64,000 bases of DNA from Caproicibacterium amylolyticum (lineage in GTDB: Bacteria; Bacillota; Clostridia; Oscillospirales; Acutalibacteraceae), in the NCBI RefSeq assembly GCF_014467055.1, contig NZ_CP060696.1, positions 1,116,001 through 1,180,000 of the forward strand. Reading direction: 5' to 3'. Both the position numbers and the translations under genes were made by a program. Below the pieces are notes generated by a model. The model made no database searches, was not told the origin of the DNA, and saw only the letters and a program-made list of their open reading frames with translations. Of the stretch, positions 58,152-61,604 are shown in pieces. Each line of letters starts with the position of its first letter. Position 1 is the stretch's first letter.

Positions 58152-58238
58152 TGGCGGAGAGGATGCGACTCGAACGCACAATGCCTTGCGGCACACCACA
58201 TTTCCAATGTGGCTCCTTACCAATTAGAATACCTCTCC
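58152..58238 (-). tRNA. tRNA-Ser (anticodon GGA)
   Basis: An 87-nt class II tRNA: acceptor GGAGAGG/CCTCTCC, anticodon stem CCACA-TTGGAAA-TGTGG with GGA (58203-58205), variable arm, T-loop GTTCGAGTC, encoded CCA. Third serine isoacceptor in the window. Confidence 0.95.
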
Positions 58239-58500: not shown

Positions 58501-59895
58501 TTGGAACGGGTAAAAATTGCTGAACTCTATAAAAACAGCGAAGCGTTCGGCACAAAGACGATTACCGTCTGCGGCTGGGTACGCTCTGTGCGCGACAGCA
58601 AAACGCTTGGATTTATTGATTTGAATGACGGCAGCTGCTTTAAAGGGCTGCAAATTGTTTTTGAAGCGGAGAAAGTCGAAAATTTTGCAGAAGTCGCAAA
58701 ATATAATGTAGGCGCGGCCATCTGTGTAAAAGGCGAACTGCTGCTGACCCCGCAGGCAAAGCAGCCGTTTGAGCTGCATGCCACGGAAATCACACTGGAG
58801 GGCGCTTCCACACCGGACTATCCGCTGCAGAAAAAGCGCCACAGTGTGGAGTATCTGCGCAGCATTGCACATCTGCGCCCGCGCACTAATTTGTTTTCTG
58901 CCGCGTTCCGCGTGCGTTCAGCAGCAGCATACGGCATTCACAAGTTCTTTCAGGAGCAGGGCTTTGTTTATGCGCATACTCCACTGATTACCGCCAGCGA
59001 CTGCGAGGGCGCCGGTGAGATGTTCCGCGTGACAACGCTGGATCCTGCCAACCCGCCGCGCAAAGAAGACGGCACAGTGGACTTTAACGAGGACTTCTTC
59101 CAAAAGCCTGCGTCCCTGACAGTTTCCGGTCAGTTGGAAGCGGAGTGCATGGCAATGGCATTTGGCCAGGTTTACACCTTTGGCCCGACTTTCCGTGCAG
59201 AAAAATCCTACACACAGCGGCACGCAGCAGAATTTTGGATGATTGAGCCGGAAATCGCCTTTGCGGAGCTGGAAGACGTGATGGAACTTGCAGAAGCGAT
59301 GATGAAGTATGTCATCCGTTACGTCATGGATACCTGCCCGCAGGATTTGGCTTTCTGCAATCAGTTTGTGGACAAGGGCCTGCTTGACCGCCTGCAGAAT
59401 GTAGTGGACAATGACTTTGCACGTGTTACCTACACCGAAGCGGTGGAAATCCTGAAAAAACACAATGACAAGTTTGAATATAAAGTGGACTGGGGCACCG
59501 ACCTGCAGACTGAACACGAAAAGTTCCTGACCGAGCAGATTTATAAGCGTCCAGTGTTTGTCACGAATTATCCGGCGGAAATCAAAGCTTTCTATATGCG
59601 TGCCAATGAGGACGATAAGACTGTTGCCGCAGTTGACCTGCTAGTGCCCGGTATCGGCGAAATCATCGGCGGCAGCCAGCGCGAGGAGCGTCTGGATGTA
59701 CTGGAAACGAAAATGAAAAAGTTGGGCATGAACCCGGAGGACTACTGGTGGTATCTTGACCTGCGCCGCTACGGCAGCACACGTCACGGCGGTTACGGCC
59801 TTGGTTTTGAGCGCCTGATTATGTATTTGACCGGCATCCAGAATATCCGTGACGTGCTCCCATTCCCACGCACAACCGGCAGCGCAGAGTTTTAA
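58501..59895 (+). CDS. asnS: Asparaginyl-tRNA synthetase
   Basis: Charges tRNA-Asn. The 464-residue class IIb enzyme has an N-terminal OB anticodon-binding domain ([25 protein letters not shown], shown in part), motif 2 [25 protein letters not shown] and motif 3 [16 protein letters not shown]. The TTG start at 58501 has AGGAGG 8 bases upstream. A leader RNA stem precedes it and a structured RNA candidate follows its stop. Confidence 0.97.
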
Positions 59896-59910
59896 CGCCA
59901 CACAAGCTCA

Positions 59911-60152
59911 TGGTTACTTTCTGTCGCTTTCTTAGAAAGCGACTAGGGTCGTGGCAGCGAAGCTCGCCACGATCTTGTACTTAGTATATTAAGAAGCAGG
60001 TCTGGGCTGCAAGCCCAGGGCCTTAGCAATTATGTGGCTTGTTTCAATGGACCGTTTCATGCGGAAAACCCTCGCAGAGGGTTCCCTTACGTACCTGACT
60101 TGATCGTGACCGGAAAAGAAGTTCGCTGCAGGAGCGCAGCGGGCTTCTTTTT
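59911..60152 (+). ncRNA. Candidate multibranched structured RNA with intrinsic terminator
   Basis: A 240-nt segment without a credible ORF holds nested helices. Long-range P1: 59911-59917 with 60106-60112. Hairpins: 59923-59931/59935-59943 (9 bp), 59947-59955/59966-59974 (9 bp with a G-T pair), 60002-60008/60012-60018 (7 bp), 60067-60073/60077-60083 (7 bp). A second long-range helix pairs 59994-60001 with 60093-60101 (one bulge) and abuts the CTGGGCT hairpin. The terminator GAAG..CGCTGC..GCAGCG..CTTC with TTTTTT ends it (60119-60152). Strand is set by the T-run. No own promoter is visible, so it may be the asnS 3' part or processed. The family is not recognised; the raiA motif and other large clostridial RNAs should be tested. 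Confidence 0.6.
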
Positions 60153-60238
60153 TATGCAATTCTGCGTGTCGCTTTCACCAAAAATGGCATAGTATAGACA
60201 CATACAGTTTGTGTATTTGCAAGATTTTGATTTTGCTC

Positions 60239-60267: not shown

Positions 60268-60320
60268 AGTAAAGGCTTATGACACGTTTTTGAGATATTG
60301 AGAAGTTGGGAGATGCATGT

Positions 60321-61604
60321 TTGTTGGAATTCCAGAAAATGTCCGAAAAAGAACTACAGAGTCTGAAAGCAGAACTTACAGAAAAATTTGAGGCGTGCAA
60401 AGCACAGGGCCTCAAGCTGAATATGGCGCGCGGTAAACCTGGCGCAGACCAGCTTGCCCTTTCTATGGGAATGCTTGATGCTCTGAATTCCAAGTCAGAC
60501 ATGAAAGCTTCTGACGGAATGGACTGCCGCAACTACGGTGAGCCGGACGGATTGCCGGAAATGCGGCAGCTGATGGGGCAGCTGATGGGTCTGCCGGCAG
60601 AGAATGTGATTGTTGGCGGTAATTCCAGCCTAAACATGATGTTTGACACCGTTTCCTGTGCGATGACCCATGGCTTGGCAGGTGAAAAGCCGTGGTGCCA
60701 GCAGGGAAAGCTCAAATTCCTCTGCCCGGCACCAGGCTATGACCGTCACTTTGCGGTAACAGAATATTTTGGTTTTGAGCTTATCACGGTTCCTATGCTG
60801 TCAACGGGGCCTGACATGGATGTAGTCGAGAAACTGACTGGCAGTGACGCTTCCATTAAGGGCATTTGGTGCGTACCGAAATATGCAAACCCGACCGGTA
60901 TTACATTTTCGGATGAAACAGTGCGTCGGTTTGCGGCACTGAAGCCTGCAGCACCGGATTTTCGCATTTTCTGGGATAACGCCTACTGCGTGCATGAACT
61001 GACGGATACACCGGATGTGTTGCTGAATTTGTGGGAGGAATGCCGCAAAAACGGCAATGAGGATTTGCCGCTGTTCTTTGCTTCCACCAGCAAAATTACA
61101 TTTCCGGGTGCCGGCATTGCAGCTATGGGCGCAAGTGAAAAAAACCTGAATACTCTGCGTGAACATTACAAATATCAGACGATTGGCCCGGATAAATTGA
61201 ATCAGTTGCGGCATCTGTCATTCCTGAAAAACATGGACGGCATTCATGCACAGATGCAGAAGCATCGTACGCTGATTGCACCCAAGTTTGAAGCGGTGGA
61301 AAAGACTTTTCAGGAACAGCTGGCAGGGAAGGGCATTGCCGAATGGACGAAGCCAAACGGCGGCTATTTTATCAGTGTGGATGTGCTGAACGGCTGTGCA
61401 AAACGTACCGTTGCTCTGTGCAAAGAGGCTGGCGTTACCCTGACTGGCGCGGGTGCGACTTATCCTTATAAAAAAGACCCGAATGACAGCAACATTCGTG
61501 TGGCACCGACTTACCCGCCGCTGGCGGAGATAAAAGCGGCGGCGGAACTGTTTTGCCTTTGTGCACAGCTTGCCGCCTGCGAAAAACTGCTGGAGAAAGC
61601 ATAA
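60321..61604 (+). CDS. Class I-like aminotransferase (aspartate aminotransferase subgroup Ic)
   Basis: A 427-residue PLP enzyme. The PLP Lys lies in FFASTSKITFPGAGIAAMG. Other landmarks are LNMARGKPGADQLALSMGML, NYGEPDGLPEMRQLMGQLMG, VGGNSSLNMMFDTVS, CVPKYANPTGITFSDE and DNAYCVHEL. The N-terminal ARGKP and PKYANPTG stretches match the AlvT/AspT-type (Corynebacterium aspartate aminotransferase) family, so aspartate-oxoglutarate transamination is the best guess. The TTG at 60321 has GGGAG 8 bases upstream. Own promoter; terminator at 61683. Confidence 0.9.
   Translation: MLEFQKMSEKELQSLKAELTEKFEACKAQGLKLNMARGKPGADQLALSMGMLDALNSKSDMKASDGMDCRNYGEPDGLPEMRQLMGQLMGLPAENVIVGGNSSLNMMFDTVSCAMTHGLAGEKPWCQQGKLKFLCPAPGYDRHFAVTEYFGFELITVPMLSTGPDMDVVEKLTGSDASIKGIWCVPKYANPTGITFSDETVRRFAALKPAAPDFRIFWDNAYCVHELTDTPDVLLNLWEECRKNGNEDLPLFFASTSKITFPGAGIAAMGASEKNLNTLREHYKYQTIGPDKLNQLRHLSFLKNMDGIHAQMQKHRTLIAPKFEAVEKTFQEQLAGKGIAEWTKPNGGYFISVDVLNGCAKRTVALCKEAGVTLTGAGATYPYKKDPNDSNIRVAPTYPPLAEIKAAAELFCLCAQLAACEKLLEKA

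Follow-up and report, generated by a model that had tools for sequence, protein, structure and literature searches.

The asnS gene of Caproicibacterium amylolyticum is followed by a noncoding stretch of about 240 nt which folds into several hairpins and ends in a transcription terminator. A first-pass annotation of the window (the whole 64,000-nucleotide stretch of contig NZ_CP060696.1 that was analysed) regarded it as a structured RNA candidate, possibly new. The locus raises the question whether this structure belongs to an RNA of asnS or to DNA that has come to lie there. Our analysis favours the latter, and a dispersed hairpin repeat of mobile type is a better reading than an RNA of asnS. 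The sequence is scattered over the genome, has two interchangeable end types that occur in inward-facing pairs, carries local hairpins that covary, and is absent from sister sites. We put at about 0.72 the probability that positions 59914-60031 are one copy of a dispersed DNA element that is built of hairpins and non-autonomous, a mosaic resembling REPINs and MITEs. This copy most likely inserted after the host species had split from its sister.

Structure of the region downstream of asnS

The gene encoding asparagine--tRNA ligase (asnS, 58501-59895, plus strand) was assigned by NCBIfam models NF003037 (673.5 bits) and TIGR00457 (626.9 bits), both above cut-off. A tRNA gene is located upstream on the opposite (minus) strand (58155-58238), and the next gene downstream, on the plus strand (60306-61604), encodes an aspartate aminotransferase of type Ic (NF053594, 644.6 bits; PF12897). 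The intrinsic terminator of asnS is predicted by folding at 60115-60153 (plus strand), and the sister genome G001 has a terminator at the corresponding spot. Between the asnS stop codon and this terminator, on the plus strand, sits a 118-bp copy of a dispersed repeat of compact subtype (59914-60031), consisting of an A-type end (hairpins H1 and H2), a short hairpin and a further hairpin, H3, and terminating in AGCAATT. Three of its hairpins are strong and one is weak. H1 (59923-59943) has GTCGCTTTC and GAAAGCGAC on either side of its loop and is the covarying helix 1 of the analyses below; H2 (59949-59972) is seen in the fold and is helix 2 of the covariation tests; the weak short hairpin CTTAGTATATTAAG (59980-59993) appears in the fold only and is missing from the consensus structure of alignment A1; H3 (60001-60019) reads TCTGGGCT GCA AGCCCAGG and is helix 3 on A1. 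The repeat is followed by a unique tail (60032-60114) without convincing homologue, in which folding gives a hairpin of AACCCTC and GAGGGTT around GCA (60067-60083). The tail also supplies the 3' strands of two long-range helices, 59911-59917 with 60106-60112 and 59994-60001 with 60093-60101, which join repeat sequence to unique sequence. All of these, the local hairpins, the terminator and both long-range helices, had been listed in the first-pass annotation, and sequence and folds place them exactly where it had put them.

That the region pairs far more than a 3' untranslated region requires was likewise borne out. The stretch 59896-60155 folds at -107.9 kcal/mol compared with a shuffled mean of -78.7 (z -5.8), and none of 200 shuffles was as low. 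The excess lies mainly in the first part of the 260 nt: the repeat with eight upstream bases (59906-60031) reaches -53.3, below all 400 shuffles (mean -36.1), and the tail alone (60032-60114) is not unusual at -17.0 versus -21.1, with 366 of 400 shuffles folding equally well or better. The extra pairing between repeat and tail, i.e. the long-range helices, amounts to -11.5 versus a mean of -4.2, and two of 400 shuffled tails were as low. When this energy test was applied to 17 copies, four of them (the focal copy, L003, L008 and L011) stood out, with no more than 3 of 150 shuffles reaching their energy, and 13 did not; a closing pairing with the tail is therefore not general in the repeat family.

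No known RNA family was recognised in the element, in agreement with the first-pass annotation. Its suggestion of raiA or another Rfam class found no backing: among 4227 Rfam models, which we take to include the raiA motif, none gave a credible match even at E <= 10. The best was ar35 (E 0.022, 23.9 bits compared with a gathering score of 45), and credible matches were confined to tRNAs in the window and to a TPP riboswitch (L008:1210-1309, minus strand) near the repeat copy at 556 kb.

A dispersed repeat with inward-facing ends

A BLAST search of the own genome (2,996,201 bp) with 59890-60160 matched 45 places. Except for the self match, all matches fall inside query positions 18-146, corresponding to window positions 59907-60035, and the tail 60032-60114 had no match in this search. 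The proposed single 240-nt RNA proper to asnS thus dissolves into a multi-copy dispersed repeat over the first 118 bp, then unique sequence and the asnS terminator. A 30-mer around H1 gave 36 matches at up to three mismatches versus none for the reversed control. The tail was rejected as a repeat in its own right, since its best match had an E-value of 2.9 and none was convincing. At that E-value its hairpin AACCCTCGCAGAGGGTT (60067-60083) weakly resembles a hairpin located further downstream in the elements of other genomes, a likeness seen in three of the six tail matches listed, two of the three being one place. Given this resemblance, the focal element may have lost part of its original length.

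R2, a covariance model built on the two hairpins H1 and H2 of the end unit, detected 92 matches in the own genome at E <= 0.01, 90 of them at or below 3e-4. Sorted by a script using a rule set by eye, the ends comprise 44 of type A, 41 of type F and 7 others; among these 92, the A ends start sharply at TTRCTTTC. The copies printed form a mosaic, with a shared start TTRCTTTCYGTCGCTTTCTNAGAAAGCGAC (end type A), a variable second hairpin and alternative third hairpins; in many, an F-type end, about GCCCTTACAGTAAAAGTTTCGCCCGCC, follows as a second end in inverted orientation. Both end types are structured and face inward but differ in sequence, and the ends of the compact subtype share by eye only a short AATTACT/AGTAATT likeness. 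Neighbouring, non-overlapping R2 matches at most 600 bp apart face inward (plus, then minus) in 18 of 18 pairs and delimit elements of 165-360 bp; random placement gave a mean of 0.48 inward pairs and a maximum of 4 in 2000 trials. Two overlapping close pairs face inward too. A single recognised end is present at 52 of the 72 merged places, and the focal copy is such a singlet, having an A end and no inverted partner. At 2991480, 2631732, 2388700 and 2342671, hairpin modules appear by eye to be nested within other modules, as if repeats target each other.

The repeat is largely extragenic. The genes on either side of the 72 places are tandem in 35 cases, convergent in 22 and divergent in 8; the remaining 7 places overlap a crude ORF, here one of at least 120 aa, so that 65 are clear by this test; 80 of the 92 R2 matches are clear of ORFs of at least 100 aa. 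An RNA element acting in its own mRNA should be oriented. Of the single-ended copies flanked by tandem genes, 10 are sense and 13 antisense, which at these small numbers shows no strand preference.

The repeat in the sister species and beyond

Among named proteins, the one closest to AsnS comes from Caproicibacterium (93% identity), which places the genome in or near that genus; the AsnS protein of the sister genome G001 is 92% identical. Following its asnS stop codon are 34 unaligned bp compared with 238 bp (element plus tail) here, and then matching terminator and downstream sequence. When the 72 own-genome places were compared with 14 G001 stretches and the asnS locus, seven sites could be placed. 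All seven lack the element in G001, a result in which gain here and loss there are not distinguishable site by site, and one of the seven element-free gaps holds an unrelated reading frame. Neither a target-site duplication nor a precise empty site was seen in these sister gaps, which are too diverged for exact borders. Six relatives (L069, L070, L071, L073, L076, L077) carry no element after asnS; this count leaves out three minus-strand loci whose downstream side was unread (L072, L074, L075) and a paralogue (L078). The asnS downstream region, to which the first-pass annotation had looked for conservation among related genomes, is thus devoid of the element in those read, while the hairpins are conserved at copies in relatives. 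With none at asnS in these six, and BLAST matches to the element in just 3 of 11 genomes of the genus, the own included, a conserved RNA linked to asnS was rejected. In G001, three copies follow each other at distances of about 200-260 bp (G001:C1:2839918-2840472; L009, L011, L018), and local tandem growth therefore also occurs.

Further afield, a structure model, R1, gave matches at E <= 1e-3 in 13 of the 200 family genomes, and R2 matched 63 of 391 genomes of the class at the same threshold, the own genome being included in both counts. Among the 63, 19 have at least five matches and 44 have one to four, many of them weak, with at most 13 candidates per genome scored. Over the phylum, R2 matched 10 of 398 genomes at E <= 1e-5, again including the own; six are outside the class, with one or two weak matches each. 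Outside the genus, more hairpins often follow the H1-H2 unit, and close end pairs in the R2 listing of the class are not always inward. When named genomes, possibly without records like the own genome, were scanned for the H3 pattern, two loci emerged, and the titles of their records name Hafnia and Spirochaetales. Two IMG/VR viral contigs (L227, L228) contain an exact F-like H1 end (2 matches); the A pattern had no exact match in viral contigs, and the repeat pattern was not found in plasmids.

Covariation of the local hairpins

Two alignments were used. A1 contains 19 copies found by sequence in three species (11 from the own genome, 6 from G001 and 2 from G006). They were chosen from the 40 places printed for the own genome and from 16 loci of G001 and G006. 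A1 is restricted to the compact A-D layout; copies whose third hairpin is broken or of a different kind, such as L015 and L016, were omitted, which favours helix 3. On A1, 94.7% of cells pair and double changes occur in 7 of 29 pairs. The covariation score exceeded that of 500 of 500 shuffles and of every slid version, and the number of double-changed pairs was reached by 19 of 500 shuffles. In helix 3, pairs flip CG/UA and UA/CG between species.

A2 contains 36 copies, 10 from three genomes of the same genus and 26 from 11 other genomes, the latter representing 26 of the 27 other-genome loci printed (L094, a partial match, is omitted). Because these 26 were found with structure model R1, A2 is biased towards structure. 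Double changes occur in 9 of its 13 pairs, and the score of 0.398 versus 0.167 was reached by none of 500 shuffles. In helix 1, columns 19-31 are CG in 20 copies, UA in 16 and broken in none. The count of further pair types was not above shuffles on either alignment (reached by 337 of 500 on A1 and 396 of 500 on A2). The local hairpins are conserved with compensatory changes between copies and between genera. Of the helices listed in the first-pass annotation, covariation thus extends to the local ones; both long-range helices are excluded from this evidence, since the tail that supplies their 3' strands has no convincing homologue.

Search for a mobilising enzyme

The Y1_Tnp profile (PF01797) had no match in the own genome, and the same search was positive in 5 of 14 control genomes. 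With no detectable Y1 transposase, the repeat is by that test not a RAYT REPIN. Mobility by a group II intron was rejected: the lone RVT_1 match of the own genome scores 59.7 compared with a cut-off of 300 for group II intron reverse transcriptase and 240.5 compared with a cut-off of 235 for retron St85 reverse transcriptase. This gene (L114:1279-2319, near 2558263 of the own genome; NF038233, 240.5 bits) is preceded by one for a PRTase-CE domain protein (L114:40-717; PF24390), and from their domain content the two probably constitute a retron defence system. An autonomous element at 840918-843177 or 2067393-2070996 was also dismissed, as L166, L168 and L187, which cover these spans partly, contain ordinary ORFs.

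Discussion

The repeat is dispersed, has inverted ends, lies largely outside genes and is missing from sister sites, all of which would be expected of a non-autonomous mobile element. The conserved hairpins are real, and a reading as RNA is therefore partly supported. A new class of structured RNA, in which selection at the RNA level keeps the helices and the copies are either small-RNA genes scattered over the genome or elements for the processing or stability of 3' UTRs, would suit the covariation on A1 and A2, the prevalence of convergent (22) over divergent (8) surroundings and the position of the focal copy before a terminator. It would also suit the above-chance pairing of repeat and tail at the focal locus (stronger than 398 of 400 shuffles), which a mobile element leaves unexplained and which counts against that reading. 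The same holds for the lack of an inverted partner at the focal copy and at most places, for the end pairs of other genomes that do not all face inward, and for the failure to find a target-site duplication, a precise empty site or, among Y1 and RVT_1 matches, a mobiliser. We nevertheless consider such a class unlikely, as the copies between tandem genes show no strand preference (on small numbers), comparable sites of the sister species lack them and the end pairs face inward. Covariation by itself is no proof of RNA; despite it, a DNA repeat of mobile type is indicated by the copy number, the empty sister sites and the absence of a strand preference.

Somewhat less likely again is a DNA repeat serving the host, such as a two-way transcription barrier between genes or a BIME-like site bound by gyrase or a nucleoid protein, spread mainly by recombination and not by a transposase. 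The mosaic modules with hairpins within hairpins (by eye) and the extragenic, more often convergent than divergent, placement would fit it, but recombination alone does not readily seed unrelated gaps and the inward end pairs resemble the ends of an element. Very improbable is a true RAYT-moved REPIN family whose RAYT has been lost from the own genome or escapes detection: although REPINs, in the available part of PMC3116915, consist of palindromic units set as inverted doublets, PF01797 is missing here under a search that works in control genomes, and every end comprises two hairpins, about 65 nt together.

If the focal sequence is a copy of a mobile element, the end hairpins H1-H2 would be the signal recognised, perhaps in extruded or single-stranded form, by a transposase or another mobiliser supplied in trans, and the middle modules would be exchanged or nested through later insertion and recombination. 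The focal copy would then be a one-ended compact form, transcribed within the asnS 3' UTR only because it is placed before the terminator.

MITEs are characterised by terminal inverted repeats, target-site duplication and an autonomous parent transposon. Like them, the repeat is short, has no ORF of its own that we could see and is absent from comparable sister sites, and its ends face inward, though types A and F differ in sequence. It differs in that its ends are hairpins themselves; no target-site duplication was found in the diverged sister gaps, and no autonomous parent at the three loci read for one. BIMEs are bound by IHF, gyrase or Pol I. BIMEs and other mosaic intergenic repeats, the subject of PMC2817692, combine palindromic modules between genes, as the present repeat does; ours differs in sequence and hosts and has nested hairpins. 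REPINs are the nearest described layout: according to the part of PMC3116915 at hand, they are extragenic palindromic units that occur in many copies per genome, some one-ended and others paired in inverted orientation about a variable spacer. Extragenic inverted doublets, one-ended copies and high copy number are thus common to both, whereas the repeat studied here has a two-hairpin end unit (about 65 nt), two interchangeable end types, pairs spanning 165-360 bp and a genome without detectable Y1/RAYT gene. CGTC-tagged REPs are, in the portion of PMC3733652 available, palindromic dispersed repeats for which no dedicated transposase was found, occurring in Proteobacteria, Chlorobi, Bacteroidetes, Spirochaetes and Thermotogae. 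Our A-type ends contain CGTC as well, but not as an unpaired tag: GTC pairs within H1 of the A ends, and F ends have CGCC. The accessible part of PMC12306157 tabulates many Bacillota REP sequences, Acetivibrio clariflavus included, under broad palindrome criteria; REP-like repeats in Bacillota as such are therefore not new, and that table may or may not include this family. Among the literature matches listed, taken from outside the subscription journals, there was no description of this repeat.

A screen for structured RNAs would call the locus downstream of asnS a new noncoding RNA, real covariation included. We tentatively propose, at slightly less than an even chance, a large, unnamed clostridial superfamily of double-hairpin-ended miniature mobile elements which is moved by an enzyme other than Y1/RAYT and grows by hairpin-in-loop nesting. 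If this is true, many clostridial genomes harbour a repeat mobilised by such an enzyme, and the question which enzyme moves REP-like repeats without RAYT becomes testable in culturable relatives of Caproicibacterium.
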